This document shows positions 21,479 through 55,237 of a stretch of 64,000 bases of DNA, one piece after another. Below the pieces are notes generated by a model. The model ran no database searches. It was not told the DNA's origin and saw nothing but the letters and a program-made list of their open reading frames with translations. Every line of letters begins with the position of its first letter. The first letter of the stretch is position 1. Both the position numbers and the translations under genes were made by a program. The DNA comes from Candidatus Desulforudis audaxviator MP104C (GTDB lineage Bacteria; Bacillota; Desulfotomaculia; Desulfotomaculales; Desulforudaceae): contig NC_010424.1 in NCBI RefSeq assembly GCF_000018425.1, forward strand, positions 1,876,501-1,940,500. The letters are read 5' to 3'.

Positions 21479-21549
21479 CGCCACATCCTCCCTCCAATAA
21501 CGACACAATTCAGCTATTCACAAACGCCCATCCCGACAGCAAACCAATC

Positions 21550-38804: not shown

Positions 38805-38822
38805 ATCCCTCCGGGGAACTAC

Positions 38823-39359: not shown

Positions 39360-39413
39360 ATAGCACACCACCGCCACCAAATACTAAAGATTATTTCCCT
39401 GGCAATAAATGAC

Positions 39414-41603
39414 CTAGTATATCTCCATGCCAGGGGGGGCCTCCCCTTCACCAGGCGGCATCAAACCCATTTCCTCGCTATAGGGCAGGTCTGTGAGAAA
39501 AACTCCCAGGTCACTTAACGGGGAAAACCAGTGGGAAAAAGCTGGTAGCCAGTATACGGGCACAGGGACCAAAAGCTCCACTAGACGCCAGTGTTCGCCC
39601 CTCTCCCTCAGAGCAAACGCCTCATCCTTAAGGGCTTGCGGGAGAACCTCTACCGAAAGCTGGCCCTTCCGGGTGGTAAACTTTTTTTGCATTTCCTCAT
39701 CGGAGAGATCTATGGTGTAGCAGCCTGATATCCTTTGCACCTCGCGCAGCGTCTGCTGCCCTTCCCGCAGGTCTTCCTGATAAGAGGGGCTTGATGCCTG
39801 CACTTCGTAAAGACGGTTGGTAGCCTGCACCCATTCTCCGTCAGTGGGGTGTTGAGGCATATCGTTTAAAATATCCCTGCTCCAGGTCAAAATTTCCTGG
39901 CCATATATTTTTTCCGAACCCTTGTCCCATTCGAGAAAGATGAAGGCAGGAGCCGGGGGCGCAGTCGTTCCTTCCGGAGTAATTCCCCTGCGGTTAACCC
40001 TCCCCAAACGCTGCACCAGGGCATCTATGGGAGCCACCTCGGTGAAAAGGACATCATAGGAGATGTCCAAGCTAACCTCCACAATCTGGGTGGCCACGAG
40101 GATTGTCCCTGGTATTGTCTTTCCCAGCTGCTCCTCCTTTTTCCAGCGATCCCGGAAAGCAAAGCGAGAATGAAGGAGGTGTACCTGGTAATCACCGTCT
40201 TCCTGGAGGGCCTGATAAATCTCCTGGGCCTGTTTGACGGTATTGGCTATGACGAGGACGGTTTTCCCTTGTCTGACAAAAGACAGGGCTTCTTCCAGCG
40301 CGCTAGCTACGGGTTCGACAAAAAGGCGAAGCTCGTGGCGCTTCCGCTGCCAAAGAGGCTCTTCGGCCTCCAAAAGGGGGCCTTGGCCCAACAGTTCCGG
40401 CAAAAATTCAGGTAAGGTGGCGCTGGCCAGGGCCAGACGGGCCGGCGGTTCCTGGGCCAGAGCTTCCTGAAGGAGCCCCAGGGTGTAGGGATCATAGCTG
40501 TGGATCTCGTCCAAAACTACGGTTGCTCTTCTGGCGAGGGACCGGCGTATCTCCCAGTGCCTTCCCTGAAGATGGGCCATGAGATACTGGTCCAGGGTGC
40601 CCACTACCACCGGCCTGGCGAAGACAGAGGCCCAAAGTCGCACATCCAAAGGATCTTCCTCTAGTTCTTTCCTTAAGATGTACCCGGCCCTACCGTGTGC
40701 CAAACCCACATTTTCTTCGCCGTAAATCTTTTTAAGCCGCTTCCACATGGCATTAGCCGTGGCCTGGGTAGGCAAAAGATAAAGAAGCCGCTCCGTATCC
40801 CCAGCCCAAAGGAGCAGGGCTTCGGTTTTGCCTGTTCCCGTGGGGGCCCGCAGCCAGAGCCTTTCCCTTTTCATCTCGCCCGCCTTCTTTTGGAAAGGCC
40901 TTAACTGTATGCTCTTTTCCTTGATGCTGGTAAGAACAAGTTTTCTCCCCTGGTGCAAAAAAAGATCCCCCGCCTGAGCTTTGCCAGAAGAAGCAACCCA
41001 GTCGGCAAGCTGAAGAACTGCCTTTATATCAGCAAAATCTATGGGAGGCAATTCTTTGAATAAACCCCTAAGACTTATCAACTCCTCCCCAAAGCGAAAC
41101 CTGCTGTTATCAAGTAGGGTTGCGGGAGTTCCGTCGCTGGTAGCGAGCTTCAGCAACTTTTCAACAGCAGGTAAGTTGCCTTCCCAGCCCAGTCCCTGCA
41201 AAAAGGCCACTACATCTTCCAAAAAGGCCGCGAGGTTTTTTTCATCAACGTAGTCAGGTGCCCTATAGCCTCTATAAACTTCGGGGCCAAGGGGTGAATG
41301 ATGGCTCAGCACGGCAGCTGCTGCCAGAGGAGAGGCCTGCAAAGTATAAAGCTCGGCGGCTAAAGCAAAGGGAAGGGAGGCAAGGGCGTGGGGATAGCCC
41401 TTGCCCCTTTTCCCGCGCATATAATCCTGAAAGCTTCTGGTGGCCTTGCCCACATCATGGAAAGCGCAGGCCAGCAGAGCCCGCTTCTCCAGCGCTGGCG
41501 GAAGACCCAAGTGCCGGGCCAGTATTTTCCCCTGTTCGGTCACCTCTTTTAAGTGGGCTAAAAGAGGGACGTCCGGCTTTCCCAGGAGGACCAATTCATC
41601 CAC
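39414..41603 (-). CDS. cas3: Cas3 HD nuclease-helicase
   Basis: The 729-residue protein joins an N-terminal HD nuclease (LLACAFHDVGKATRSFQDYM, AVLSHHSPLG) to a superfamily 2 helicase: Walker A in RAPTGTGKTEALLLWA near residue 255, ATVVLDEIHSYDP (DExH-like box), LASATLPEF, VATQIVEVSLDI and VQRLGRVNRRG (motif VI). It is recruited by Cascade, unwinds and degrades target DNA. GTG at 41603 follows GGGAGGAGC by suitable spacing and lies inside the end of cas5. All catalytic motifs look intact, so type I interference should be functional. Confidence 0.96.
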   Translation of the reverse strand: MDELVLLGKPDVPLLAHLKEVTEQGKILARHLGLPPALEKRALLACAFHDVGKATRSFQDYMRGKRGKGYPHALASLPFALAAELYTLQASPLAAAAVLSHHSPLGPEVYRGYRAPDYVDEKNLAAFLEDVVAFLQGLGWEGNLPAVEKLLKLATSDGTPATLLDNSRFRFGEELISLRGLFKELPPIDFADIKAVLQLADWVASSGKAQAGDLFLHQGRKLVLTSIKEKSIQLRPFQKKAGEMKRERLWLRAPTGTGKTEALLLWAGDTERLLYLLPTQATANAMWKRLKKIYGEENVGLAHGRAGYILRKELEEDPLDVRLWASVFARPVVVGTLDQYLMAHLQGRHWEIRRSLARRATVVLDEIHSYDPYTLGLLQEALAQEPPARLALASATLPEFLPELLGQGPLLEAEEPLWQRKRHELRLFVEPVASALEEALSFVRQGKTVLVIANTVKQAQEIYQALQEDGDYQVHLLHSRFAFRDRWKKEEQLGKTIPGTILVATQIVEVSLDISYDVLFTEVAPIDALVQRLGRVNRRGITPEGTTAPPAPAFIFLEWDKGSEKIYGQEILTWSRDILNDMPQHPTDGEWVQATNRLYEVQASSPSYQEDLREGQQTLREVQRISGCYTIDLSDEEMQKKFTTRKGQLSVEVLPQALKDEAFALRERGEHWRLVELLVPVPVYWLPAFSHWFSPLSDLGVFLTDLPYSEEMGLMPPGEGEAPPGMEIY

Positions 41604-42307
41604 GTAAAGCTCCTCCCTTCCAGAGGTTCTATGGTCAGGGCGTCCTGGTATCCCTCCAGTTCCACCTCCAAATCATAGGGGAGGAAAGTAAAGGGCCTGG
41701 GGTTCAGGGGGTAGCGAATCCCCCTTTTATCAACTTCAAAGGCCAAGGGCATGGTTTCAACCGCTGGCGGTTCAAAGGCAATTCCCGGCCGGGGAACCCA
41801 TTTAAACCGGAGCCCCTGGAGGTCGCCAGGAATAACGGTTCCTGAAAAAAGGGGGGCTCCAGGGCAGGTCTCCCCCCTGCCCAGCTCTTCGACCACAATC
41901 AGCTCATCTTCCCGTCCTAAAGACAAGGGGTAAGTGGGGTCCAGGAAGGCCTGCTGTAATTCTGCCAGAAGTTCCTCAGGCCCCCCATAGAGGATCATAA
42001 AGCGGGCATTGAACAGGATCTCCCGGAAATACGGAGAGCGTTCCGCCAGCTTATTATTCTTGATCTTCATCACCGTCCACATGTCCCGGGCAAGCCCTGG
42101 CTTTTGAAGGGCCAGGGTCGCAACCAGGAGATCCCGCAGGGGGGAGGCCTCCTGCCAAAGTTCCTCTTCCGCCAGACCCCGGGCAGCCCCTGCCAATCCA
42201 AAAAGGGTGGTGGGGGGCGGCAAAGGCAAGGTGCGCTGGTAGTTGTGGTCCAAAGGCCGGCGAAAAGAAGCCAAAGGCGCCGTCACCTTTACCCAAAGGA
42301 CATTCAT
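41558..42307 (-). CDS. cas5: Cas5, type I-B
   Basis: The 249-residue RAMP opens MNVLWVKVTAPLASFRRPLD and continues RTLPLPPPTTLFGLAGAARG, the conserved Cas5 start in which a PPPTTL..L.GAA motif follows the first strand. In the middle, ELIVVEELGRGETCPGAPLF and a C-terminal GRSFTWMNW. Cas5 caps the crRNA 5' handle in Cascade. The stop lies 46 bases inside cas3, and the start overlaps the cas7 stop by four bases (ATGA type), so translation is coupled along the operon. Confidence 0.92.
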   Translation of the reverse strand: MNVLWVKVTAPLASFRRPLDHNYQRTLPLPPPTTLFGLAGAARGLAEEELWQEASPLRDLLVATLALQKPGLARDMWTVMKIKNNKLAERSPYFREILFNARFMILYGGPEELLAELQQAFLDPTYPLSLGREDELIVVEELGRGETCPGAPLFSGTVIPGDLQGLRFKWVPRPGIAFEPPAVETMPLAFEVDKRGIRYPLNPRPFTFLPYDLEVELEGYQDALTIEPLEGRSFTWMNWSSWESRTSLF

Positions 42308-43284
42308 AGCTTTTTAATATCCTCCTTGGCTTGGGCTATGGCCTCGTGGACACTGAGAACAGGGCCGTAGTTCTGAAGCTCCGCCCGGATCTCTTCCTCA
42401 TTGCCCAAAAATCCAGCCTCTAAACCGAAAATAACTGCCTGCCGGAAATCCTTGAATTTGTCCAGGGCTGTCCGTAAAGGATCTGGAACAAGCCCATACC
42501 TGCCCTCTAAATAGCGGGCTTGTAGAGCTTCCAGGAATACCGGATGCTTCACTCTTAGGCGGGCATAAACGAAAAACCGGGGCGAAAGATCGCTCAGCAT
42601 CCGGGCCGTGCGCCCCCCTCCCCAGAGGAGGCCCAAGGCGTCGAGCAGGGCCTGAAGGCGACGCTGGCGCTCTTCCCCTGGTAGGACGTAAAACAGGCGA
42701 CCATTTCTTTCTATTTTTTCCAGCGCCTCTGGTATTTCCTTGTTATTCTTACCTACCTCCTGGTCGCTGAAAATACCTGCCCGGTCTAATTCCACCAGCA
42801 TATTGCCCTTAAACATATTAGCGTAAAGCTCGGTCTCGAACATGTTGCCCCCTGCTGCCATATCCTGGCCAAAACGTTCGAAGGAACGGGTACCCAGATC
42901 CCGGTCGCCCTGGAAGGAGAATAATCCCACGGCTGCCGATACCCGAACCGGGGAAGTCCGGCGGCGGTTGCCTGAAGGGTCAAGATAACCGAAAAGGTCT
43001 TCGTCCACAAATTCCCACGGCCGTACAGGCGGCGTGACCTCCTGGCCGCTAACCAGAGCCGAGGCCTCGGACAAGGTGAAGCCCAGATCTTCCAGGCGGT
43101 CTCGTAACATGCGTCGCTTGGCTTGCCCGGAAAAATAGGGAACAGAACTACCATCGGGCAAGGTGACTTTTTTCGCCACCATGACATTGCCTTCTGTATG
43201 GGAAGCGTTGATGTTTCCTGCCGATACTTTCATGAGATACCCCAAAGCAATGGCTTTACTCTGTTGCAGGTTGTTCATAGACAT
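42304..43284 (-). CDS. cas7: Cas7 (Cst2/DevR family), type I-B backbone
   Basis: The 326-residue protein has the Cas7/DevR pattern: a first strand IALGYLMKVSAGNINASHTE, KVTLPDGSSVPYFSGQAKRR with a GQ...R helix, RRRTSPVRVSAAVGLFSFQG, and FETELYANMFKGNMLVELDR. The C-terminal third is helical. Several Cas7 copies coat the crRNA in Cascade. It has the Cst2-type length, matching the Cst1-like Cas8 encoded upstream. ATG at 43284 is followed by a second Met two codons on; the gene overlaps the end of cas8. Confidence 0.93.
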   Translation of the reverse strand: MSMNNLQQSKAIALGYLMKVSAGNINASHTEGNVMVAKKVTLPDGSSVPYFSGQAKRRMLRDRLEDLGFTLSEASALVSGQEVTPPVRPWEFVDEDLFGYLDPSGNRRRTSPVRVSAAVGLFSFQGDRDLGTRSFERFGQDMAAGGNMFETELYANMFKGNMLVELDRAGIFSDQEVGKNNKEIPEALEKIERNGRLFYVLPGEERQRRLQALLDALGLLWGGGRTARMLSDLSPRFFVYARLRVKHPVFLEALQARYLEGRYGLVPDPLRTALDKFKDFRQAVIFGLEAGFLGNEEEIRAELQNYGPVLSVHEAIAQAKEDIKKL

Positions 43285-44800
43285 TTCCTCCTTCTTCAGT
43301 TCTGGAACCCCTGGCGGCCCTCAGATAGCTGTTCATGGCGTAGATAGAAAGCAGGGTTTTTACCCGCAACCAGGGGCTGCCCGCTATGCGCTCCCCTTGG
43401 CCGATTTCTACAAGCCTTTCGGGGACTGTAATCTCCAGGCGAAACTGGATATCATTCAAGACCCGTAAGAATTCCTCCAGGTTCTTGGCATTGCGCAGGG
43501 CATAGAGGAGCCCCATCTCGTTAGACTTTTGGGCCTCGGTCCCCAAAGTATAGCCAAAGCCCTTTAAAACTTTCAGCAGGTTTTCGTCCACATGCAATAC
43601 CTCCTTGGCATAATAGCTTAACACGGCTTCCGTGCCCTGGAATAGCGGTGGCAGATTTTTCTCCTTAGCCCGCGCCTCGAAGAGGAAAGCCTCTACGGAA
43701 GGCAGGGGATCGTCGAATTCCAGCACAGCCCAGGAAATCTTTTCCCGCCATAAAGTGTTGTACTGGTTGCCCTCCCTGACCTGAAACTGGCGAAAAACGT
43801 TGATTAAGGTTTGTTGAGGGTTCTCCGCCGGCACCACCTCCAGCCAGTCCTGGTAAAGGCGGTATAGGGCGTGTAGGCGGGAAAACTCGCGGAAAAGCTG
43901 CATGTTGAAGGCTTGTCCCGGATTACCGGTGATAGCGTACAGCGTAAGCGGCGCAGGAGGCAGCGTTTCGTCCGCCCCCAAGAGGGAGGCTAGAAGCATT
44001 CTCCCTTCTTCTGGTATCTGATCCGAACTCTGGACATGGGCAAAGAGTTTCAACAGCAGGGCCATGGTTGTCTCGTGCAGATAGGGGCCGTAAAAGGGTA
44101 GAACTATGTTGCCGCCCCTGCTTCCTGAAAGGGCTAAAGGCTGGATCACCTCCTTTTGCAGCCGGGATATTTCGGCCAAATCGCTGTGAAAAAGGAAGAA
44201 GTGCAGAGCCGTCCTTCCCTGGGCTACCCAAAGCCAGGTCAGATAGCCTGCTGTTCCCGCCACGGCACACCGGGGACAGAGATTGATCCCCCTCTTACCC
44301 CGGGAATAAAAGCTGCCGAATTTGTCAGGAGCGACAATAAAGGGGAACATCCACATCTTGGCGTCGGTAGCCGAAGCCTGGGCCCCGCAGATGTTACATT
44401 GTTTTTTTGTTTTGCTGAACAGGAACTCCAGCCTGGGATGAGGAGGAGAAAGGGGATACTCTTTGCCATTGACCTTCTTTTTTGGCGGAGCATCCACAAC
44501 CTTGATAAAAAAACCAGTTGGGTAAACCCAGGTTACTTTGTCGTAATTCTTTAATTCTCCGGTAACTTCATCAAAATACTGGCCCACGTTGCCCGTTTTT
44601 TGCAGAAGACGTTCCTGCACCAAAGCCAGGATGTTGTCAACCGGGTAGGTTCCCTGCCCTAACTCGTTGACCAGATACACCAAACCGTTGTCTATCCAAA
44701 AGTTGCCAGTAGAATGCCGGAGGTCCAGCTGCACTTGAATAATATTGACTTGCTTTTGGGGGTTTTTGAACTGCCCTGAGGGAGCCCTCTTTTGAGCCAT
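43256..44800 (-). CDS. cas8: Cas8 (Cst1/Cas8a1-like) large subunit, type I-B (Tneap)
   Basis: The 514-residue protein has a Cst1-type start (VQLDLRHSTGNFWIDNGLVY, LVNELGQGTY) and a zinc site formed by KKQCNICGAQASATDA and GINLCPRCAVAGTAGYLTWL, characteristic of Cas8a1/Cst1. The C-terminal part is helical with EMGLLYALRNAKNLEEFL. Cas8 recognises the PAM and recruits Cas3. ATG at 44800 has GGAAGGAGGTGAC upstream, among the strongest ribosome sites in the window. It is the first gene after the intergenic palindrome at 44881 and may have its own promoter. Confidence 0.9.
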   Translation of the reverse strand: MAQKRAPSGQFKNPQKQVNIIQVQLDLRHSTGNFWIDNGLVYLVNELGQGTYPVDNILALVQERLLQKTGNVGQYFDEVTGELKNYDKVTWVYPTGFFIKVVDAPPKKKVNGKEYPLSPPHPRLEFLFSKTKKQCNICGAQASATDAKMWMFPFIVAPDKFGSFYSRGKRGINLCPRCAVAGTAGYLTWLWVAQGRTALHFFLFHSDLAEISRLQKEVIQPLALSGSRGGNIVLPFYGPYLHETTMALLLKLFAHVQSSDQIPEEGRMLLASLLGADETLPPAPLTLYAITGNPGQAFNMQLFREFSRLHALYRLYQDWLEVVPAENPQQTLINVFRQFQVREGNQYNTLWREKISWAVLEFDDPLPSVEAFLFEARAKEKNLPPLFQGTEAVLSYYAKEVLHVDENLLKVLKGFGYTLGTEAQKSNEMGLLYALRNAKNLEEFLRVLNDIQFRLEITVPERLVEIGQGERIAGSPWLRVKTLLSIYAMNSYLRAARGSRTEEGGNVYEQPATE

Positions 44801-44880
44801 CTAGTCACCTCCTTCCTCTAGCATTGCGCTTTCTCCTAACTTTTTAGAGTATAACGGTGCTCCTGTCGAAGCATGAAGCT

Positions 44881-44915
44881 AACGTTTTGAATAGTAACTG
44901 TTTACTATAAAACGT
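44881..44915. promoter_or_regulatory. Intergenic inverted repeat between cas6 and cas8
   Basis: AACGTTTTGAATAGTAA and TTACTATAAAACGTT form a 15-bp inverted repeat with a two-base bulge. It lies in the 160-bp gap upstream of cas8 and lacks a downstream T tract on -, so an operator fits better than a terminator. A TATACT -10-like hexamer lies nearer cas8 at about 44849-44854 but has only a weak -35. Confidence 0.4.
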
Positions 44916-44960
44916 TTTTCCCCTGAACCGGGCAGGAGACCTTCCGCCAGGTTGCAGCAA

Positions 44961-45755
44961 TTACATAATATTACTATTCCGCCTATAGCGACTACTAACT
45001 TGAGAAGCCTTTTCTACCAGGTTGCAGCACCCATAACCCTGGGAATTTTTCGACCCCAGACCTGCGTCCAGGGCCAGCTGCAAAAGCTCCAGATCGCCTG
45101 AAAGTTCGTACTCCCCCATCCAACCTTTGATGACAGTATCTTTATAGTAAGTAACCTTCAGGTCCCGGTCTTCCACCCGCACCGGCCGGATGGCGAAGCC
45201 CTCCGCCCGCGCCGGCTGCCCGTAGACCAAAAAGTGCTTTTTTGCAAGGTTGCTTGCCACCAGCTCGGTGAAGCGCGGCTCAAAGGGCGAATAATAATAC
45301 GTGTAGTTCCGCCCGTCAACGCCGGAAAGGGTACTGTAAACAACCAGCGGGGAAAGCATCCGCACCTGAAGGGTCTCCCGTGTTACCCACGGGGCTGCCG
45401 TCGCCATCTTCTTCACCTCCAGGTGGGCATCGCCCAGACGGACCCGGCCCTGGCGGAGAAAACCGGTTCCCAGCTCCTGGAGGATGAAAGGGATGGGGGA
45501 ACAGATCACCAGTCGCAACGGCGGCGTAAGCACCAGCCGTCCAGCCGCCTGGTCGTAGGTCACCGCCTGTCCCATCAGGCGAGAAAAAGTGAAAAGCTTA
45601 AAGCGGCGCTTCTCCAGGGCAAAGCCATGCTCGTGCAGGTAGCTCCTGAGTACCGGATTATCCATCCGGCGGTAGATCAACCCCTGGAGCAAGTGCCCGT
45701 ACTGGACGGGTATGGCCACCGGCCCGGGAGCGCTAAAGAAGATAGTGAGCTGCAT
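44961..45755 (-). CDS. cas6: Cas6 crRNA endoribonuclease
   Basis: From ATG at 45755 (GGAGGGG upstream) the protein has 264 residues. It starts MQLTIFFSAPGPVAIPVQYG and has HLLQGLIYRRMDNPVLRSYL with a candidate catalytic His near residue 21. The RAMP glycine-rich loop LDAGLGSKNSQGYGCCNLV lies near the C-terminus. Cas6 cuts the repeat to leave an 8-nt 5' handle, here expected to be ATTGAAAC. It is the only cas6 in the window and lies between the cmr and I-B genes, so it probably supplies all three effector complexes. Confidence 0.94.
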   Translation of the reverse strand: MQLTIFFSAPGPVAIPVQYGHLLQGLIYRRMDNPVLRSYLHEHGFALEKRRFKLFTFSRLMGQAVTYDQAAGRLVLTPPLRLVICSPIPFILQELGTGFLRQGRVRLGDAHLEVKKMATAAPWVTRETLQVRMLSPLVVYSTLSGVDGRNYTYYYSPFEPRFTELVASNLAKKHFLVYGQPARAEGFAIRPVRVEDRDLKVTYYKDTVIKGWMGEYELSGDLELLQLALDAGLGSKNSQGYGCCNLVEKASQVSSRYRRNSNIM

Positions 45756-45802
45756 GGGTAATTTCCCCTCCCGCTTCACATATAAATATACCCCGACGCC
45801 GA

Positions 45803-46774
45803 TTAACGAAGGCTCTCCAGCAACTCTCTGTACCAGTCTTTGTCCAGTGACTGCTTCTCACGTCCGGCTTCCTTCACCTTGGCCACAATGGCCTCTGCTA
45901 TACGGCGTTTATGCTCCGGGCTAACATCAAGCTTCCACCACTGTTCATAAAAGGCCTGAATGCGTCCTGCAACTTCCGAAGTCCTCAACGCCCGGATCTG
46001 GTTAATTAACTGATCAACCTTTCTGTCCTCTACGCCGGTAATGGGAGGAACTGACTCCAACCTCAATCGTCCGTAGCCGCTGGAGGTTTTCGCTCCTACG
46101 CCCAAGTTAAGGAGGGCGTACTGTAAAATCTCGAACGCCGCCTTTACCCAGGCATCTGGCCCTGCTAACGCCACCAGATATTTGCCCGTGGCCGACAGGA
46201 ACGGGACCGGGTTCGGACTGTCCCAATCCGCCGGAGGCTTGTCCCCTTTTTGGTAGTACCCTTCATGATGGACAGTAATCACATCGGGGTATAAAAGCCT
46301 GGAACCAGGCAGGGGCAGCGCATCGAAAAAAATGACGTAGCCTGCGGTATCGGTATCGCCAAAAACTGTCTTATATGCCCCGGCGTTCGCCTGCCAATCA
46401 TCCCCTAAATACTGACGGGCAAAGCTGGCGGCCAGTCCTTTGAGGGCACTACCGGGAATGTAGGGCACGCCATAGGTATGGTGCAATGCAACCGATGTTT
46501 CCAGGACGCTCTCTTCGCCCAAGCCCACGGCTATGCGCCCTAAAACCTCGGCCACCCTGCATGCGGCTCCATAATCTTGTAATACCCGCCGCCAACGCTC
46601 AAACCAGCGTGAGTACTCCTCCGGCACCGGTATATCAGATACCTCTCGCACTAGATCATGGCGGCTATCCTTATCCTCTCTAGCCTGATTGCGGATGAAT
46701 TTGTCCAGCCAAAGCCCGGCGTTCGTCGTCGGCGTTTTTCGCGCGCTGACAAGGCAAGTCCGCCTCGTGCTCAT
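45803..46774 (-). CDS. cmr6: Cmr6, type III-B RAMP
   Basis: The 323-residue product has HHTYGVPYIPGSALKGLAAS, the RAMP PGSsLKG motif of Cmr6, followed by FDALPLPGSRLLYPDVITVH and LNLGVGAKTSSGYGRLRLES, the Gly-rich loop. Cmr6 caps the 3' side of the crRNA backbone. An upstream helical domain (RWFERWRRVLQDYGAACRVA) and a C-terminal charged helix flank the core. The start overlaps cmr5 by four bases. It is the last cmr gene; cas6 follows after 47 bases. Confidence 0.93.
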   Translation of the reverse strand: MSTRRTCLVSARKTPTTNAGLWLDKFIRNQAREDKDSRHDLVREVSDIPVPEEYSRWFERWRRVLQDYGAACRVAEVLGRIAVGLGEESVLETSVALHHTYGVPYIPGSALKGLAASFARQYLGDDWQANAGAYKTVFGDTDTAGYVIFFDALPLPGSRLLYPDVITVHHEGYYQKGDKPPADWDSPNPVPFLSATGKYLVALAGPDAWVKAAFEILQYALLNLGVGAKTSSGYGRLRLESVPPITGVEDRKVDQLINQIRALRTSEVAGRIQAFYEQWWKLDVSPEHKRRIAEAIVAKVKEAGREKQSLDKDWYRELLESLR

Positions 46775-47148
46775 TCGCCCACCCCCTCCCTGTCCGCGCC
46801 TGCCTCCACACCCAACACTGACTGGGCGAATCGCTTGTACCAGGCCAGTGCTGCTAGCACGTTGCGTGTGAGAAGCATATATTCAGGAAGTTCTGCTGTG
46901 CGGCTGCGAGCAAGCAGTTCTTCTTCGTTGACAACAGCAGCAATATCCCTGAGCAATTTCCTCCCGGCGGCACCGTCCCGGGCCTCAACGAACGCCAGCG
47001 CCTGCGCCAATCCCGCCGTGCGGACAAACACCGGCAACCTGTGAGCCAGGGAGCCGTAATTGTTACTCCCATCCTTTCCCAGCTCATCTCGTACCTGCAT
47101 CACCTGCTCAAAAATCTTGGCGGCATACTCCTGGTTGCGTGTCTGCAC
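46771..47148 (-). CDS. cmr5: Cmr5, type III-B small subunit
   Basis: The product has 125 residues from GTG at 47148, nine bases after AGGGGG and just past the cmr4 stop; a longer frame to 47181 would overlap cmr4. It is helical: QTRNQEYAAKIFEQVMQVRD, then NYGSLAHRLPVFVRTAGLAQ, the Cmr5 y.s.a..lP..I...Gl.qal motif, and YMLLTRNVLAALAWYKRFAQ. Cmr5 forms part of the belly filament of the Cmr complex. Confidence 0.92.
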   Translation of the reverse strand: MQTRNQEYAAKIFEQVMQVRDELGKDGSNNYGSLAHRLPVFVRTAGLAQALAFVEARDGAAGRKLLRDIAAVVNEEELLARSRTAELPEYMLLTRNVLAALAWYKRFAQSVLGVEAGADREGVGE

Positions 47149-47150
47149 GG

Positions 47151-48017
47151 CTAATTTCCCCCTATCATCCGAAGGCGACACAGGCCGCGACCGACCGTCG
47201 CCTTGCCACCTAACTGCAGCGGCTTTTCCATTAACCCGCTAAAGGTTTCAAACACCTCATCTGGTTTCGCCTTAACCGGGTTCGCGAGTATCAGCCCCGC
47301 AAGAACCGTCTCTGCCGGCAGGGCCTCTTCGTACCAGAGCCCGCCTGTTTCCACCGTTTTTGCGTCTTCGCGCAGCCTGACGCGGGCGAAGACTTCCGTC
47401 GCAGTATCAAGCAGGAAGCTCATCACGTCGTCATGCACAACGCAAAAACGCGCGTTTAGCATCTCCTGCCCGCTGGTGTCATCCGGGAAAACCTGTCTGT
47501 CAATCCACTCTGCCCACTCGCGCGCATCGCTATTGGTTTCGGCGGTCAGGTCCAGATCCTCCAGGATGACCTGGTTGTTCAGTACAATCGCAGAGCCGTC
47601 ATTGGATACAAGGCAGGAAGTTTCCAGGGTGGGTACAGGGACACCCGAAGGTATGCTAGAAACCCCTACGTTTTCTGCATCCCGAAGGAAGCGGCGCAAA
47701 ATGTAGGGTGATGTAACCCACGCAAACGTTCCCTTAAGGCTACGCACGGGCAACAAGAGCAGCCGCTGGTCCGAGATCTGGACTGAGCCGGCATGCTCGT
47801 GGGCGCTATCGGCATCGGGACCGAAAACCTTTTTCCGCATTTCATTATCCCTACAGGCATCGCGCAGTACCCCCTTAAGGGAAGAGCCAGGAAGGTAAGG
47901 CAGGCCCGTAGCCTTTTCGCGGGCCACTGGGAGATCGATCACCCCCACACCCTGCTCCGTCCCTGCGTGCAGAGAAGAAAGCGCGTACACGAAGAGCAAG
48001 CGTGCCTCCACCGTCAT
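47151..48017 (-). CDS. cmr4: Cmr4, type III-B target-RNA endonuclease backbone
   Basis: The 288-residue RAMP begins ARLLFVYALSSLHAGTEQGV, GVIDLPVAREKATGLPYLPG and SSLKGVLRDACR. The Asp in VIDLPVARE corresponds to the conserved acidic residue of the Cmr4 loop that cuts target RNA at 6-nt intervals. Other motifs are SVQISDQRLLLLPVRSLKG and LQLGGKATVGRGLCRLRM at the C-terminus. It is intact and of normal length, so RNA cleavage by the Cmr complex is likely. Confidence 0.94.
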   Translation of the reverse strand: MTVEARLLFVYALSSLHAGTEQGVGVIDLPVAREKATGLPYLPGSSLKGVLRDACRDNEMRKKVFGPDADSAHEHAGSVQISDQRLLLLPVRSLKGTFAWVTSPYILRRFLRDAENVGVSSIPSGVPVPTLETSCLVSNDGSAIVLNNQVILEDLDLTAETNSDAREWAEWIDRQVFPDDTSGQEMLNARFCVVHDDVMSFLLDTATEVFARVRLREDAKTVETGGLWYEEALPAETVLAGLILANPVKAKPDEVFETFSGLMEKPLQLGGKATVGRGLCRLRMIGGN

Positions 48018-48027
48018 AACCTCCTCA

Positions 48028-49386
48028 TTAGAGTTTCTTTAAAAAAGCCTGTAAGACATCTGGGATCCCATTGAGCGGCGATAACTCTTGAGCCTCTTGA
48101 GCCTCGATTGCCGCCTCCACCGGCCAGCTTATATCGACTTCTTCCTTTTTTCTAAGAATCAGGCTGTCTGGGAGCACCGTGACACCCGTTCCTTCTAAAA
48201 CCACTGCCAGGCCAACAGCACCATCCGCGCAGGCTAACGGCCGCAAGATAAGGGGGCTGGCCAGGCGCTCGTAATCTCGACCCTGCAGTATAGTATCGTA
48301 TGGGTCACCGATCTTCTCGTCCTTGAAATGAAATACAATCGGCAACCCGAAGGCCGCCCGCGGGAACTTCCTCACTGTCGAAAGGGACCTGGCGTGCCTG
48401 TCGCATCGACGGTCTGTAAGTCTTCTGATTTCATCCGGCTCGGGCCATTGGCTGCGCCCCGGCTGCCTTGGAGAGGCCCCTGGGTAGCGGCTCTGGCGAA
48501 AGTCTCGGAGGCATTTGACCAGATACTCCCAGGCGGCGATAGGGTCCGAACGCCTACCTGTAACTTTCATACGCGGATTCAAGGAAAGATGCGGCACGCT
48601 GGCAGGCCAGGTCCCGCTGACCACGTGCTTTTGCAGGCCTTTGCGAATTTTGGCTTCAACCTCATTGGCCCTGGATGGAGTAACGGGCTTGCCGTCAACA
48701 CTAACCAGCTTCGACGCCCCAAAACCACGCCGCGTGCGGGCACCAATGCCGCCAAAAGTCTCCCAGGCCCAGAGCGCGGCTTCTACCTCCTCTCGCCGTT
48801 TTTCGGGATACGTGATCTTCAACGTAAAGCAGACCTTGGTGCGCACCGTTTTAGTTTGCATGCCGATACCGCCGGCCCGCATTTCCTTTTCCGACGGTTG
48901 CAAAGGAAATGCCGCGTAAGCGGGGGCTACAATTTCATTCGCTTTAACTTTCGGTTTTGGTTGGTCTTTACGCCCGTCTACCAAACCCGCGACAACCTCA
49001 AACGGGTGCTTGCTCTCCCCACTTTGTTCGATCGAGATCATAATCTCCACTTGGGACGGCATTGGTTTTCTCTCTGTGCTGGCTGCCCCCCAGAGTTCAT
49101 CCTCCGCCTCTTTCATCGCCGCCAGATCGCCGTTGAAGCGCCCGCCCCGGCAGGCGCGCCACCAGAAACGCAGCTGCCCCCGAATTTCCGGGCCCCGGAT
49201 GACCGTTACCGGATCGGTCTCTCCCGGCTCCACACCGCCACCAAACAGGGGGGTAATCAATTCGTAGCTGCGGATTTGGGTCACCAGCGGCACCATCTGA
49301 CTGCCTATCACCCGTCGGCTAAGCTGAGGCTGGACAGGGGGCGGCACAGGTTCCCTACCGTTCCCATCTCCTGGTAGTCTTCTCAT
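48028..49386 (-). CDS. cmr1: Cmr1, type III-B RAMP
   Basis: The protein has 452 residues from ATG at 49386. A ribosome site GGAGG lies about 13 bases upstream, at the cmr3 stop. Motifs: SYELITPLFGGGVEPGETDP, VIRGPEIRGQLRFWWRACRG, GAASTERKPMPSQVEI, and WETFGGIGARTRRGFGASKL, all classic Cmr1. Cmr1 sits at the 3' end of the crRNA with Cmr6. The C-terminal half is a second RAMP-like fold with RKFPRAAFGLPIVFHFKDEK. Confidence 0.93.
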   Translation of the reverse strand: MRRLPGDGNGREPVPPPVQPQLSRRVIGSQMVPLVTQIRSYELITPLFGGGVEPGETDPVTVIRGPEIRGQLRFWWRACRGGRFNGDLAAMKEAEDELWGAASTERKPMPSQVEIMISIEQSGESKHPFEVVAGLVDGRKDQPKPKVKANEIVAPAYAAFPLQPSEKEMRAGGIGMQTKTVRTKVCFTLKITYPEKRREEVEAALWAWETFGGIGARTRRGFGASKLVSVDGKPVTPSRANEVEAKIRKGLQKHVVSGTWPASVPHLSLNPRMKVTGRRSDPIAAWEYLVKCLRDFRQSRYPGASPRQPGRSQWPEPDEIRRLTDRRCDRHARSLSTVRKFPRAAFGLPIVFHFKDEKIGDPYDTILQGRDYERLASPLILRPLACADGAVGLAVVLEGTGVTVLPDSLILRKKEEVDISWPVEAAIEAQEAQELSPLNGIPDVLQAFLKKL

Positions 49387-49394
49387 AGCTGCTC

Positions 49395-50570
49395 TCACAC
49401 CTCCATCCGGTGAAATGTGCCGTCCCACACCCCAAGAACGGCAAGACCGAACCCGTCGCGGCGATCCTGCTCCTCGTCGCTGACACAGTGCATCCAAATG
49501 GTGTCTATCCACCTTTTAACCGCCGCGCTGTCACCATCAAGTTTCAGGAAGTACACCGTGCCTGCAGGCGCCAGGCGACGGGTGGGCTTACGCTCGCCCT
49601 TCGCGAAATCCCAGCCAGAAACAGTCTGACACCTCTTGAGCGCCACCGCCTGCAAGGACGGTATCACACCTTCCCGGCCTTCAAGGAGCCACGCCGGTTT
49701 CCAGCCCGCCTTGAAGTGTGCCGGCGTCAGCAGGATGAGGCGGCAGTGGCCCAGGGCAGCGATTCTCTCCTCCAGAGCTCCGGAAAGGGATGGAAGCGTT
49801 TCGTTGCTTCGCCGCCAAAAGACCAGGCGCCGTTCGCCGCCCAGAGGACCAATCCCTGGTTTCAGGCTGGGAGCGTCCGTAGCCACCGCCAGCCCCAGCC
49901 GCCGCGCCTTGGAAAGCGCCTGTTTTTCAGGCATATGAATAAACTCCAGACCCCGGGTTTGAAAAAGGGCGCCCCGCTCTTCATCTGCTGTTTGCGTATT
50001 CGGCCGTATACTTACATGCATCCGCGCCTCCCGCACCAGACCGTCATGTCCCAGGTCGGATAGAGAAACCTCATCACGTTCTTGGGGATTTAAAAGCCAC
50101 TGTTGGAAGGAGTCCCAGTCCCAATATTGCGGTGCTTTGGTGGATGGCTTACGCGGATCCCGGTGGGGCATGCCTACCAGTGCCATAGCCTCTGGAAGGT
50201 TTGTGCCTGCTCCCGGCGGTAACTGTAAGGGGACAAGCTGCTTGATTTCTGCTTTGGCAGTATCAGCTGATTTAAGTTCGAGTAAAAGCGCGTCAGCAGG
50301 CGCCGGAACCAGCCAGCGGGTAACGTCCCCCGTGCCAGCATCCAACTCCACCAGCAGCGGCCCCCGGACATTAATCTGCTTCACCCGGGGAACCTCCCCG
50401 GGCTGGAAGCAACCTGACGCATCGAGCCCGTTGCGTGTGCGGACAGCCCCTGTAGTTGTCGAAGGAAAGGGAAAGGCTAGTGATTCCGCTCGCGCGCCGG
50501 GCACAGGCCCGAAGGGGCGGCCGTCGCGGGCAATAAGGGGATCGCGGGGTTCAATGATCCAGACGGTCAT
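49395..50570 (-). CDS. cmr3: Cmr3, type III-B 5'-handle binding RAMP
   Basis: The 391-residue protein opens MTVWIIEPRDPLIARDGRPF, the conserved Cmr3 start, then SLAFPFPSTTTGAVRTRNGL. Later DLGHDGLVREARMHVSIRPN and RGLEFIHMPEK match the family. The C-terminus holds GFGLAVLGVWDGTFHR. Cmr3 binds the crRNA 5' handle and pairs with Cmr2. The start overlaps the cmr2 end by 20 bases, which suggests translational coupling. Confidence 0.94.
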   Translation of the reverse strand: MTVWIIEPRDPLIARDGRPFGPVPGARAESLAFPFPSTTTGAVRTRNGLDASGCFQPGEVPRVKQINVRGPLLVELDAGTGDVTRWLVPAPADALLLELKSADTAKAEIKQLVPLQLPPGAGTNLPEAMALVGMPHRDPRKPSTKAPQYWDWDSFQQWLLNPQERDEVSLSDLGHDGLVREARMHVSIRPNTQTADEERGALFQTRGLEFIHMPEKQALSKARRLGLAVATDAPSLKPGIGPLGGERRLVFWRRSNETLPSLSGALEERIAALGHCRLILLTPAHFKAGWKPAWLLEGREGVIPSLQAVALKRCQTVSGWDFAKGERKPTRRLAPAGTVYFLKLDGDSAAVKRWIDTIWMHCVSDEEQDRRDGFGLAVLGVWDGTFHRMEV

Positions 50571-52374
50571 TTTTTATCACCTCGCCGGTTGAGGGTACAG
50601 GCAGGGGTATATTAGTCAGATCCATGGCGGCAGCAAATTCTCGGGCAATGATGAGTTCGTCAGCCAGTTGCTTAAGTTTTTCGAAAGAAAACCTATCCTT
50701 GTCAAGGAAAACCTCTAGCTCACTGAGAATATCTTCCGCTATTGGCTCAGTACCACGCCGGGCCTTCTTGCGGCGCAAAATACGCTTAGCCTCTGCGTAC
50801 GCTGCTTTTTGAAGCGTACTCTTTAAATTTTCATCTGACGCCTCGAGCTGCCTGGCCAGGTCGCGTAGTTCGTAAGCGGCTCCATCAGGTACGGCTTCGG
50901 CTCGATGCAGGTCAATGAACCGTTCCAGCCGCCGGTCCAGGACGCCCCACGTATCTTTAACGGTCCGCTCCACCCCACCTCGTTTGCTGAGCGTTACCGC
51001 CAAGGCGTTTTTGCCACCTACGGATTTAGCGGCTTTTTCCGCTCGCCGCGCCAACTCAAGGGCATCAGAGAGGGGATCAAGATGGTGGACAACAGCAATG
51101 CCGACCGAAAGGGTAAGGGATATTTCCTTTCCGCCATCTTCTGCTTTAAAACCAGCAAACCGCTGGCGGAACGTCTCAGCCAGGCTACGGGCGCACGCCA
51201 GCACCGTGTGCAGGGGCACAAGAGCCAGCACATCATCGCCACCGGAATATAAAAGCGAACCCTGGTGGTGCTGTACTATATCTCGGACCTCTAGGGCAAA
51301 GCGGCTCTGAGAACGGGAAAGTTCTTGGTGCTTTTCGGGAGTTTCCTGGGTATCAATAACTTTACCCACGTGATCACCGTCGGCGAGGAGAAGCGTGTAA
51401 TAAGGAAGCGGCTTTTTGCTGTCAAAGGCTTGTTTTAGGAAAGTGCGCAGCGCCTCTTTGGCTTGCAACAGTTTCCCTTCTTCTTCTTCTTTGAAAAATT
51501 CGCGCAGGCGCTCTTCAAATAACAACTGGCCGTCATGGGGACCAAATACGGGATGATGCAGCCACACCGTTTGCAGGGCATCCGCCGTGATGCCAAGTTC
51601 CTTCAATTTTCCGATGTATGCATCCACAAGAGGCTGGTGCTGGTTGGTGAGCCTTTCCAGCAAAGGGAGAGCAGCCACGTGGGAAGTACTGAAAAAATAC
51701 TCCTCTGATCCGCGCCTCCCGTGACGTTTTAATAAACATACCCCGCACAGATACTCGCCACGCTGCACGCGGTAATTTTCATAAAGCTGGCTTTCATTCA
51801 TCCGACTGTATACACTCCCGGTAATGACCGACTCCCGGCACCCGTCGAGAGAACATTTGGGAGCGGGGCTTCCCCACGTAATGGGCGCGAAGTTGCGCGT
51901 CACCTTCCGGGCGTTCAGGAGGGCTTCGGCGAAGTCACGCGCCTGTTTGTAGTTACCGTTAAAGGGGTAGGAAGCCCAGAAGAACTCAGGAAAGTCTTCC
52001 ACCTGCCGCTTAGCAATTTCACGATCAAACCCGCCCTTAATCTTTTTGTAGGCATCATCACAAATTTCGCAAAGGCGCCTGAGTATGGCTTCCCGGACGG
52101 ACTCGCGCAATTCCGCCGGATCGCACCTTACCCGGGCTACGACTTTGTTGGGCGCGTTGAAGTCGAAAGACTTCAACTGCTCTAACTTATCAGGGGCTGG
52201 AAACACAAGGCAGGAAATATCGTTCCCATTCTGCTGCACGATTTCCAGCGCGGCGGCCTTTGCCAGTTCACTCAACAACCACGAGCCAAACCAAAGATCG
52301 CGACTGCGCCGCGCGGTAGCGATGAAATCCTGAACCGGTCCAATGTGAAAAACGACAAGGTGCATCTCAGCCAT
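50551..52374 (-). CDS. cmr2: Cmr2 (Cas10), type III-B, no HD domain
   Basis: The 607-residue protein starts VVFHIGPVQDFIATARRSRD LWFGSWLLSEL, the Cmr2 palm-1 opening, so the N-terminal HD nuclease found in many Cas10 proteins is missing. A zinc site uses Cys 174, 179, 210 and 213. LLADGDHVGKVIDT near 330 and LLYSGGDDVLALVPLHT with GGDD at 378-381 form the cyclase site, which is intact. The C-terminal helical domain follows. It should make cyclic oligoadenylates on target binding but cannot cut DNA with an HD site. Confidence 0.95.
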   Translation of the reverse strand: MAEMHLVVFHIGPVQDFIATARRSRDLWFGSWLLSELAKAAALEIVQQNGNDISCLVFPAPDKLEQLKSFDFNAPNKVVARVRCDPAELRESVREAILRRLCEICDDAYKKIKGGFDREIAKRQVEDFPEFFWASYPFNGNYKQARDFAEALLNARKVTRNFAPITWGSPAPKCSLDGCRESVITGSVYSRMNESQLYENYRVQRGEYLCGVCLLKRHGRRGSEEYFFSTSHVAALPLLERLTNQHQPLVDAYIGKLKELGITADALQTVWLHHPVFGPHDGQLLFEERLREFFKEEEEGKLLQAKEALRTFLKQAFDSKKPLPYYTLLLADGDHVGKVIDTQETPEKHQELSRSQSRFALEVRDIVQHHQGSLLYSGGDDVLALVPLHTVLACARSLAETFRQRFAGFKAEDGGKEISLTLSVGIAVVHHLDPLSDALELARRAEKAAKSVGGKNALAVTLSKRGGVERTVKDTWGVLDRRLERFIDLHRAEAVPDGAAYELRDLARQLEASDENLKSTLQKAAYAEAKRILRRKKARRGTEPIAEDILSELEVFLDKDRFSFEKLKQLADELIIAREFAAAMDLTNIPLPVPSTGEVIKNDRLDH

Positions 52375-52429: not shown

Positions 52430-53344
52430 TCACAGGACGCTACTGCGGATCTCCCTTCCCATGTCGCGCAAGGCTTGCAAGTCAACAACTTGCGCAACCT
52501 CGTACTGGGTACGGTCGTTGGGAGCTTGATAAACCCACAAGATCTTGGGGAAGCCTCCCCGCAGGCCGTGAATAGCGGCTAAAATAGTCGCGGCTCCAGG
52601 GGCAAGGCCTGGCAGAATAAGAACTATATTTTTCTCGGACCATTCCTCCAGAGCCAGACCCACCTCTTCAATCCACTTCTTCGCCTGAGGCTTTAGGTCT
52701 TCTTGAGCAAGAAAATGGACCGGCAGTTCAATTAACTCTTCTATGTGGACATGAAATCTCTCCCTGAGTTGTTCCTGCTGAAAACTGGTAAGCGGATGGC
52801 TACTGAAATTAATCGCGATGACTTCTGGAAATGCTGGGGCTTGCGCCATTTCGATGATTTCTTGAGGAGACGCCTTGAATGTAGCGGTACCACGGCGTAT
52901 GAATACATCCTGCCGCTCAATCCCAGTACTCCCACGAATGAATTTATGTGGTCTCCCGGCGGAGCGGGCGATCGTTACTACGCCGATGTTGCGGCCAGTT
53001 TGGGGATGCAAAACTTGGGTAAACGCGATTTCTGGAGCCGGATCGCAATAATTGCTCAGTGCCACTATCATTTGTCTCTCCAGTTCGTCCGGATCCGATG
53101 GTGAAAAGCCCACTACGTAATTCTCTGGCAAGAACCGATCTCGGGGACATTTTGTGTTGTCCAAAACACCGATAATAACGTAACCGGTACCGCCCGGGGT
53201 GTTGGCAATGGCCGTAACGTCCTTGACAAACTCCGCCTGCTTCTCCCTTGTGGAAAGGTCCAAGGTTTGTTTGAGCTCTACCTTTGGCGCTTCGCGGCCA
53301 AGATCAACATATCTTTTAATGCGCCGCCAAATAGCCTCATTCAC
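52430..53344 (-). CDS. AlbA_2 (Schlafen-type) domain fused to a Csx15-like domain
   Basis: The product has 304 residues; GTG at 53344 overlaps the stop of a short upstream frame. Residues about 1-170 look like an AlbA_2/Schlafen nucleic-acid-binding domain: GREAPKVELKQTLDLSTREK, FVKDVTAIANTPGGTGYVII (the conserved AfANtpGG..iGV pattern) and RQDVFIRRGTATFKASPQEI. Residues about 172-304 align by eye with Csx15 encoded just upstream: INFSSHPLTSFQQEQLRERF, GLALEEWSEKNIVLILPGLA, ILAAIHGLRGGFPKILWV and YEVAQVVDLQALRD. I know of no description of this pairing. Csx15 belongs to type III accessory genes and has been tied to handling of cyclic oligoadenylates, so a ligand-controlled nucleic-acid binder is a reasonable guess, not a result. 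Confidence 0.75.
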   Translation of the reverse strand: MNEAIWRRIKRYVDLGREAPKVELKQTLDLSTREKQAEFVKDVTAIANTPGGTGYVIIGVLDNTKCPRDRFLPENYVVGFSPSDPDELERQMIVALSNYCDPAPEIAFTQVLHPQTGRNIGVVTIARSAGRPHKFIRGSTGIERQDVFIRRGTATFKASPQEIIEMAQAPAFPEVIAINFSSHPLTSFQQEQLRERFHVHIEELIELPVHFLAQEDLKPQAKKWIEEVGLALEEWSEKNIVLILPGLAPGAATILAAIHGLRGGFPKILWVYQAPNDRTQYEVAQVVDLQALRDMGREIRSSVL

Positions 53345-53424
53345 GATTCCTGCCCCTTTCTCAGAAAGCTATCACACACAGCACCTTGCCGCAGTTTTTC
53401 GTGAGCGATTCGTTTCGCAGGCAT
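53341..53424 (-). CDS. Possible 27-residue coupled microprotein
   Basis: A frame from ATG at 53424, with GGAAGTGGG seven bases upstream, encodes 27 residues starting MPAKRIAHEKLRQGAV. Its TGA overlaps the next GTG start as GTGA, like the other coupled genes here. The frame stays open further upstream (a segment ending DYSETAEVGCF), so a longer form is possible. The rest of the 178-bp gap 53345-53522 shows nothing I recognise. Confidence 0.3.
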   Translation of the reverse strand: MPAKRIAHEKLRQGAVCDSFLRKGQES

Positions 53425-53522
53425 AAAGCAACCCACTTCCGCTGTTTCACTGTAATCCTCGTAATCCTTCGTATCTTCAAGTTCACCATTGTTTCGGTAT
53501 CATTAGTTCCCCTCTCCTCTGC

Positions 53523-53903
53523 CTACCTTTTCCCCCGTGCTCCTTCCCGCACCGCCTGGAGGTTCACTATCTCGGCCACCTCGAAGCGGGGCGGTACGCT
53601 GTTGGCCACCGGCCGGAGGCGCACCACCGGCAGGAAGTAGCCACAACGCCCGTGCAGCTCGGCCAGGAGGGTCGCCGCGCTGAAGTTCAGAGACGGCGGG
53701 TTAATAAGAATGGGCAACGTCTGCCACTCCTCCGTTGTGAGTCCGGCCCGGTCCACCATGCCCACGACCTGGGGAACGATGGGCTGCTGGGGGTCGATCT
53801 GGGCGTCGATCTCGACCACCCGGTCCACCTTTCTCCCGGCAAGCTCTTCCAGTTGTTGCAACTGCTCCGCAGTAAGGGGATGGGAAAAGTTAAGGAGAAT
53901 CAA
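53523..53903 (-). CDS. csx15: CRISPR-associated protein Csx15
   Basis: The 126-residue protein starts MILLNFSHPLTAEQLQQLEE and has VDRVVEIDAQIDPQQPIVPQ, AGLTTEEWQTLPILINPPSL, ATLLAELHGRCGYFLPVVRL and FEVAEIVNLQAVREGARGKR, which is the Csx15 pattern. It is a small Rossmann-like protein found beside type III systems. I recall work linking Csx15 to binding of cyclic oligoadenylate, acting as a sponge or ring-nuclease-like partner, but I am not certain of the mechanism. The ATG lies six bases after the 60-residue gene. Confidence 0.85.
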   Translation of the reverse strand: MILLNFSHPLTAEQLQQLEELAGRKVDRVVEIDAQIDPQQPIVPQVVGMVDRAGLTTEEWQTLPILINPPSLNFSAATLLAELHGRCGYFLPVVRLRPVANSVPPRFEVAEIVNLQAVREGARGKR

Positions 53904-53909
53904 GGTTTT

Positions 53910-54092
53910 TTATCCTCCCAGTTCTTTTTTCACCGTTTGTACCAGCTTTTCCGTGTCTTCTTTCGACAACTCTCCGTTTTGCGCTGAGAGAAGTTCGATT
54001 ACCGTGATCCCATGCGCCCTTGCCAGCTCCATGTTGTTGAACTCATATTCCTGGTCTAAGATGAGAAACTTTTCGGTGTAGGTTATTTGCAC
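53910..54092 (-). CDS. 60-residue protein of the CARF-Csx15 module, unrecognised
   Basis: From GTG at 54092, five bases after GAGGG and overlapping nothing but the end of the CARF gene stop region. The product starts VQITYTEKFLILDQEYEFNN and ends QTVKKELGG: a short beta-rich start with charged helices after it (ITVIELLSAQNGELSKEDTE). I do not recognise the family. Tight spacing on both sides (one gene ends at 54094, the next starts at 53903) makes it a real operon member. An antidote, adaptor or DNA-binding partner role is speculation. Confidence 0.65.
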   Translation of the reverse strand: MQITYTEKFLILDQEYEFNNMELARAHGITVIELLSAQNGELSKEDTEKLVQTVKKELGG

Positions 54093-54093
54093 C

Positions 54094-54987
54094 TTATCCC
54101 TCTTCCTCCGTGAAAACAAAGTAAGGCGCGAACTCGGCGATGAGCCGGGAGCGGTCGACGTTGCCCTCAGGGTACTCAAGCCACTCCCTCAGCTTCTCGT
54201 AGGCGGCGCCGAGTTGGTTGGCCACGGTCTGCTCCCCCTTGAAGAGGGCTCTGGCGATGGCCGCGTTATCCAAGCCTTTGCAGGCCAGGCGGACTACCTC
54301 CCGCTCGGCCGGGGTCAGCCAGCGGCGGATGAACTCCCCCTTCCGCCGTTCCCGGGCTTCGCGGCTCAGTTTCTCGTACCATTCCACGACCGCCGCCGGA
54401 TCATCCAGCTCGGCCACCGTACGCATCAGCGTAGCCGCTTCGCTCCAGCGCAGTACCGGGACCGGCACGAGCCACACTTTCTCTCCCGGCGGCAGATGCA
54501 GGCGGCGCTCAGCGCCGGGCCGCCAGCCCTCGGTGACCAGATGCCAGGCACGGTCCTCGGGGCCGAAAAGGAGCTGAGCGACAACCACCGCCATGATCCC
54601 CATGACTTTGCGGCCGCCCGACACACACAGGTGCACAACCCGCCCTTGCTCCCGCGCCCGGCGGACCTCGGTGTAAAGAGCGCGCAGGAGGCCGCGCAGC
54701 TCATCCTCGCCCCGGAAATCGGCGACCGGGCCGCCGGGCACGGTCACCGGAACCGCCCGCAGCGTCACGCTGGGGTAGATTACACCGGAGAACTCCTCTT
54801 CCAGCACCGCCAGGGCCTCCCGGACACCGGCGTCCTCGGTGTGGACGGCTACTACCTCATCCACCGGCGCGCCTTCAGCCAGGAGACAGTCAAGAGTAAT
54901 GGTCACCACCTGGGGTTCCACTCCCAGGGTACAGATCAAAGTAGCATGACGACCCGGAGCTCCCGACATCACAGGGGTCACTTTCAT
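54094..54987 (-). CDS. CARF-domain regulator with LuxR-type helix-turn-helix
   Basis: The 297-residue protein has an N-terminal CARF domain of the NE0113/TIGR02584 kind: RHATLICTLGVEPQVVTITL near residue 13, VDEVVAVHTEDAGVREALAV, and VVHLCVSGGRKVMGIMAVVV with the SGGRK ligand loop. A middle stretch has LPPGEKVWLVPVPVL. The C-terminus, about 222-285, is LTPAEREVVRLACKGLDNAA IARALFKGEQTVANQLGAAY, a GerE/LuxR-like DNA-binding fold. I infer a transcription factor that senses cyclic oligoadenylates from the type III cyclases. It is the first gene of the module leading into cmr2, so it may regulate its own operon. Confidence 0.82.
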   Translation of the reverse strand: MKVTPVMSGAPGRHATLICTLGVEPQVVTITLDCLLAEGAPVDEVVAVHTEDAGVREALAVLEEEFSGVIYPSVTLRAVPVTVPGGPVADFRGEDELRGLLRALYTEVRRAREQGRVVHLCVSGGRKVMGIMAVVVAQLLFGPEDRAWHLVTEGWRPGAERRLHLPPGEKVWLVPVPVLRWSEAATLMRTVAELDDPAAVVEWYEKLSREARERRKGEFIRRWLTPAEREVVRLACKGLDNAAIARALFKGEQTVANQLGAAYEKLREWLEYPEGNVDRSRLIAEFAPYFVFTEEEG

Positions 54988-55237
54988 CCTGCCTCACTTC
55001 CGGCGGGGCGACCAGTTTATTCATTAACGTTTAGCGTAGTAATGTGTTACCTCTCTTGCCAAATGCTTGTTATTAGTTGAAGGGGATTTCGATGTCGCCG
55101 GGCGATTTCCTGCAGGATATTGTCGTTTTCCGCTGATTTACGCTGATATCGGAGAAATGCGAGATAATTCGGGGCTATTCGACAAATCGACCGCCGGCGG
55201 GCTGCTGGTTGGGATGCAAACTATGTCCGGTCGCGGC
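54988..55237. other. Intergenic stretch upstream of the CARF-LuxR gene
   Basis: No gene with support on either strand. On - there is a TTGGCA hexamer near 55051-55056 with only a poor -10 match at usual spacing, so the promoter of the leftward operon is expected here but not clear. Confidence 0.4.

Follow-up and report, generated by a model that had tools for sequence, protein, structure and literature searches.

A CARF–LuxR protein with a shared predicted operator and an AlbA_2–Csx15 fusion as parts of a candidate two-armed cyclic-oligoadenylate response module in a type III-B CRISPR locus of Candidatus Desulforudis audaxviator

We analysed a 64,000-nucleotide stretch of the Candidatus Desulforudis audaxviator MP104C genome (the window; bases 1876501-1940500 of a single 2,349,476-base contig), following up an earlier, sequence-only reading of the signalling genes at its type III-B CRISPR locus. 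On the minus strand the genes run in the order CARF–LuxR, a small open reading frame (ORF), csx15, AlbA_2–csx15, cmr2, cmr3, cmr1, cmr4, cmr5, cmr6 and cas6; downstream of cas6 lie type I-B cas8b-cas7-cas5-cas3-cas4-cas1 and then a long CRISPR array. Strand and gene positions agree with the earlier reading. The first gene (54094-54987) encodes a 297-residue protein that joins a CARF domain of the CARF3/Csx14/NE0113 kind to a LuxR-type helix-turn-helix (HTH), a predicted cyclic oligoadenylate (cOA)-responsive regulator. It is followed by the 60-codon ORF (53910-54092), a standalone Csx15 of 126 residues (53523-53903) and a 304-residue fusion of a Schlafen-type AlbA_2 domain to a second Csx15 domain (52430-53344). 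The four had been described as tightly packed, which holds for the first three (gaps of 1 and 6 nt) and not for the fusion, which begins 178 nt after csx15 and ends 55 nt before cmr2. Cmr2/Cas10 (50551-52374) has the GGDD motif (palm profile, 125.8 bits) and gave no HD domain match in the profile search; cOA signalling, already suggested on these grounds, is its likely output. The other III-B effector genes occupy 45803-50570, cas6 44961-45779 and the type I-B operon, a predicted target of the regulator, 37803-44800. Two predicted operators of the form TRGTA-N6-TACYA lie among these genes: TAGTAATGTGTTACCT at 55037-55052, 49 bp upstream of the CARF–LuxR start and with one mismatch, and TAGTAACTGTTTACTA at 44892-44907, an exact match 91 bp upstream of cas8b.

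The domain make-up of the CARF–LuxR protein was recovered by profile search, with matches to PF09623 (Cas_NE0113, 179.7 bits) and GerE (27.1 bits, cut-off 23.5), and the PADLOC CARF3 profile PDLC01851 covered the entire protein at 418.6 bits; TIGR03642, at 83.4 bits, fell slightly below its cut-off of 90.35. In the predicted model (predicted local distance difference test score, pLDDT, 80) the N-terminal half has its nearest structural matches in two Crn1 ring nucleases, Sso2081 and Sis0455 (Z 15-16, best 15.8), and the C-terminal half resembles LuxR-type HTH domains (Z about 11, root-mean-square deviation 1.6 Å over 74 residues; 1.5-1.6 Å for EL222 and VpsT). Profiles and model thus agree with the by-eye call of a CARF protein ending in a LuxR-type HTH, including the CARF fold on which that call hinged. 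The recognition helix reads EQTVANQL, of which QTVANQL is invariant across 20 homologues.

Full-length CARF–LuxR was found in 20 genomes among the 398 of the phylum that were scanned, nearly always with Csx15 and cas10 nearby. CARF–LuxR and csx15 beside cas10 form a core that recurs with different effectors: the neighbouring one may be a CARF-PD-(D/E)xK protein, Csx1 or CARF-RelE, and a non-exhaustive scan recognised none among the genes covered in the stretches of G035, G136, G166, G253, G258 and G282. Elsewhere the regulator gene itself is stop-ridden or fragmentary (G160:C103, G104:C1:1283069 and G291:C15:33369). Two loci have a 526-528-residue protein between csx15 and CARF–LuxR (L037 6507-8084; L043 5529-7112), possibly an undescribed effector, with a weak CARF_PIN match in L037 (E 4e-5) and none in L043.

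Because the effector next to this conserved core varies, transcription was a candidate output, and we searched for an operator. Of 14 representative genomes, 6 have an exact TAGTA-N6-TACTA dyad upstream of the regulator operon; when the sets were shuffled 200 times, no dyad of any kind exceeded 3, a count reached in a single run. For the wider pattern TRGTA-N6-TACYA we counted 26 occurrences across 347 kb of CRISPR loci in genomes that carry CARF–LuxR, against a single one across 339 kb of comparable loci in genomes that do not, and when spacers of 0 to 12 were compared only a spacer of 6 was enriched. This pattern heads the operon with CARF–LuxR in all 20 genomes (16 exact, four with one mismatch), also where csx15, cas6 or cas4 is the first gene. 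Alignment of the sites (window 44870-44930 and 19 related) revealed invariant GTA and TAC cores and, in most, a third half-site resembling GTA some 8 bp downstream of the dyad (alignment columns 47-51), a hint that two dimers may bind cooperatively. The exact dyad also precedes type I-B cas8b, both in the window, where the site at 44892-44907 is one of two exact copies in the 2.35-Mb genome, and in G229, G253, G076, G193, G258, G282, G166 and G002; G035 and G136 have it with one mismatch. Within 200 bp upstream of cas8b orthologues, the dyad was present in 7 of 8 genomes with CARF–LuxR and in 0 of 19 without it (Fisher P 9e-6). These predicted operators lend support to the transcriptional arm of the response that had been suggested from the sequence, and we infer a cOA-responsive switch that links the III-B alarm to I-B interference in the manner of Csa3, but through a LuxR-type HTH.

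Several points weigh against so direct a link. Some of the promoters that the dyad pattern describes also served to derive it. The operator predicted at 55037-55052, in front of the window regulator itself, departs from the pattern at one position and would be inconspicuous in isolation; its support comes from position and conservation and not from score alone. No dyad was found upstream of the tested cas8b genes of three CARF–LuxR genomes (G116, G174 and G301). The cas8b genes of CARF–LuxR genomes are, moreover, closer on average to the query than those of the controls, and shared descent partly contributes to the association. Genomes of near-equal cas8b identity nevertheless differ in the dyad: G136 and G166 (50 and 48%) have sites with 1 and 0 mismatches, and G168 and G306 (49 and 47%) have none, which supports the link between CARF–LuxR and the dyad. 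A one-mismatch dyad at 51263 lies inside cmr2 and was taken as chance. Scanning for sigma-70 promoters yielded nothing promoter-like close to the two window operators, and our own -35/-10 scan placed the dyads inconsistently relative to promoters; we therefore make no call between activator and repressor.

Beside this transcriptional arm, the predicted response involves two Csx15-containing proteins. The standalone Csx15, so called in the sequence-only reading, matched NF040560 at 176.2 bits (cut-off 35). Published Csx15 proteins bind cyclic tetraadenylate (cA4), form filaments in which dimers stack head to tail around the ligand, and cleave it slowly, some of them being pure sponges; the site is lined by conserved residues (S/H, H and three R), of which those tested serve binding or slow cleavage (PMC13148439). 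We compared these published positions (S/H motif I, H82/H90 and R116/R120/R123) with the standalone protein and found S7, H8, H84, R119, R123 and R126, with motif I one residue shorter, NFSH in place of the NFSxH of PfCsx15 and CliCsx15 (PMC13148439; PDB chains 9tet and 9teu). The fold and the S/H, H and R-x3-R-x2-R residues are common to both window copies, the second of which is fused to an effector domain. The standalone protein is accordingly a predicted cA4 sponge or slow ring nuclease, and the earlier suggestion of ligand handling gains support from the published activities. In genome G056 two Csx15 proteins are adjacent (L061 7765-8956), the first with an N-terminal stretch resembling a transmembrane helix and possibly membrane-anchored; csx15 is partial in L063 (G001) and stop-split in L056 (G356).

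In the fusion, the profile search identified SLFN_AlbA_2 at residues 18-157 (47.3 bits) and Csx15 at residues 176-300 (NF040560, 135.6 bits, cut-off 35). In its predicted model (pLDDT 91.5) the N-terminal half resembles AlbA_2/Schlafen structures (Z 7-11), with the tRNase domain of SAMD9 as one of them, and the C-terminal half resembles SAVED/CARF sensors (Z 5-8.5), including the SAVED-CHAT and CalpL filaments. The proposed pairing of AlbA_2 with a second Csx15-like domain, placed by eye at residues 172-304, is borne out by both lines of evidence. It is not a new architecture: residues 4-301 align with residues 3-295 of CbCash (9ylu, E 3.2e-57, about 40% identity), which has the same domains end to end and solved structures (PDB 9ylu, 9ylv and 9ylx; Chloroflexi JACRBQ010000080.1). 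This alignment adds the fusion to an already known and structurally solved family. As in the window, Cash stands next to a standalone csx15 in the CbCash locus; there the two genes overlap, and the locus is III-A-like and not III-B. A third AlbA_2–Csx15 fusion occurs in genome G358 (33% identity). An initial scan of genome contigs with a single-sequence query gave no match, and searches of plasmids, phages and viral contigs detected no relatives at the sensitivity applied. Other AlbA_2 matches, in G158, G283 and other genomes of their group, read as ordinary AlbA_2 proteins: their C-terminal half is different and contains no Csx15 domain. The CbCash locus also encodes, between cas10 and a csm2-like gene, a 693-residue AlbA_2-like protein in which a P-loop ATPase-like part was seen by eye (L091 2510-4591), a possible second Schlafen-type component.

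Residue comparisons suggest what the fusion may do. Its E18-x4-E23-x-K25 aligns with E209, E214 and K216 of SLFN11, a Schlafen RNase in which all three are essential and which requires dimerisation (PMC9482658). Its AlbA_2 half shares the fold of SLFN11, SLFN13, SLFN14 and the SAMD9 tRNase, and the fusion differs from these in having a single AlbA_2 lobe and a cOA sensor domain as predicted gate. The Csx15 half keeps every published cA4 residue (S181, H183, H259, R293, R297 and R300), whereas CbCash lacks both histidines and two of the three arginines, with Q, Q, L and S in their place. The fusion is most likely a cA4-gated RNase, and because it combines Schlafen nuclease residues with kinship to CbCash it is probably a nuclease effector itself. 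The idea that this response bypasses nucleases is therefore not supported, the more so as the small ORF turned out to be a nuclease leftover.

That ORF, formerly a 60-residue unknown, is by profile match and synteny the C-terminal stump of a decayed CARF-PD-(D/E)xK nuclease gene. It matches only positions 230-284 of the 285-position CARF4-PD-(D/E)xK profile PDLC01887; the CARF and nuclease core are absent, the last 57 residues alone are kept, and the remaining frame begins 1 nt past the CARF–LuxR stop. In G076 and G229 a full gene of 307-328 codons lies between CARF–LuxR and csx15, and this synteny with the intact gene rules out a separate unknown gene; G084 has an intact copy between csx15 and cas10, and in G193 the gene is split by a stop codon. 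The window fusion itself sits between csx15 and cmr2, in a locus where another nuclease has decayed.

Each of these assignments has a competitor. The CARF–LuxR protein could be a ring nuclease of the Crn1/Csx14 type whose HTH merely dimerises it or serves autoregulation, the cas8b sites belonging to another regulator. The Crn1 fold match speaks for this, as do the naming of the related family TIGR02584 as ring nuclease by NCBI and the report by Hoikkala et al. that groups Csx14 with Crn1 and notes co-occurrence of Crn1 and Csx15 (PMC12409355). We nevertheless consider it quite unlikely: the catalytic serine of Crn1 motif I is replaced by an invariant glutamate (E24) in 20 of 20 homologues, the HTH, which Crn1 lacks, is strongly conserved, and the dyads track the presence of the gene. 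A dual role as ring nuclease and regulator is compatible with these data. Similarly, the fusion might bind DNA or RNA, or purely sponge cA4 and thereby tune its level, without being a nuclease, given that AlbA_2 domains occur in proteins not known as nucleases and that pure-sponge Csx15 proteins exist (PMC13148439). The E-x4-[ED]-x-K signature, moreover, is general to AlbA_2 domains, ordinary ones included, so that it permits nuclease activity and does not prove it; and since CbCash has lost the two histidines and two arginines, Cash proteins may not all be cA4 sensors of this kind. Both points count against a cA4-gated RNase. All the essential SLFN11 residues are present, however, the AlbA_2 fold resembles those of Schlafens and of the SAMD9 tRNase domain, the literature counts bacterial Schlafen RNases among anti-phage effectors (PMC12839542), and the fusion fills the slot beside csx15 and cas10 that nuclease effectors hold in other genomes, which together make a non-nuclease role unlikely. 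That the small ORF encodes a functional protein, for instance an oligomerisation domain that was kept or one that pairs with Csx15 or Cash, would fit its in-frame start directly after the regulator gene and its 57 well-conserved residues. We regard this as very improbable: it stands alone in no other genome examined, being elsewhere the tail of a full nuclease, and the full-length gene is already stop-broken in G193.

With the regulator reading and the nuclease reading preferred, the locus is fairly probably a two-armed cOA response module of the III-B CRISPR system. On meeting target RNA, the Cmr complex would have Cmr2 make cyclic oligoadenylate, probably cA4; the ligand is taken as cA4 because Csx15 is cA4-specific in published work. 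A CARF–LuxR dimer would bind the nucleotide through its CARF domain, alter its grip on the TRGTA-N6-TACYA operators and thereby adjust two operons, its own and the type I-B cas8b-cas7-cas5-cas3-cas4-cas1 set. In parallel, cA4 may bring fusion proteins together through head-to-tail stacking of their Csx15 domains, so that the AlbA_2 domains pair into an active Schlafen-type RNase; such stacking is a plausible on-switch, as SLFN11 works as a dimer. The RNase would cut tRNA or other RNA and arrest growth. The standalone Csx15, and probably the Csx15 domain of the fusion too, would soak up or slowly cleave cA4 and so reset the system, and the 60-codon ORF would be the dead remnant of an earlier CARF-PD-(D/E)xK nuclease. 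We put forward only tentatively a bolder version, in which CARF–LuxR would be a bacterial cOA master switch whose single 16-bp operator ties the III-B alarm to spacer acquisition as well as to I-B interference, and the AlbA_2–Csx15 protein a self-limiting Schlafen effector acting in mixed filaments with standalone Csx15.

The window holds further CRISPR features. A second, III-D-like locus lies at 10834-21508 on the minus strand, with a CARF-PD-(D/E)xK protein (20237-21508), a Cas10 with GGED (17961-20474) and Csx10-, Csm3- and Csx19-like proteins; its Csx1-like CARF protein (10834-11910) looks truncated, covering no more than positions 2-275 of a 401-position CARF-HEPN profile before an ATPase-like tail. 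Having CARF proteins of its own, this locus rules out Cash as the genome's only cOA effector, and it may share signals and effectors with the III-B module. The CRISPR array at 29589-35600 contains about 90 copies of the repeat GTTTCAATCCCTCGTAGGTAGGCTGGAAAC, with some spacer blocks duplicated, and lies between two transposase genes (28074-29468 and 35786-37180) with identical 464-residue products.

To our knowledge, control of transcription by cOA has been studied mainly in archaeal Csa3. Csa3 likewise joins a CARF sensor to a DNA-binding domain and links type III signalling to type I genes (PMC8844856, PMC8699464), and the DNA binding of a tested Csa3 did not respond to cA4 (PMC8844856). The likeness is functional only: in place of the winged HTH of Csa3, the window regulator has an HTH of the LuxR/NarL type, together with a CARF3/NE0113-family CARF domain, a bacterial III-B operon and a different predicted operator. 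The new part is thus the regulator with a shared predicted operator before the III-B and I-B operons, a putative LuxR-type bacterial counterpart of Csa3. As the window Cash keeps the cA4 residues lost in the solved Cash, it is well suited to asking whether filaments of Csx15 can activate an effector; and since a defined operator of 16 bp is predicted and its target operons are named, the possibility that a type III alarm reprograms type I immunity and adaptation is now directly testable.

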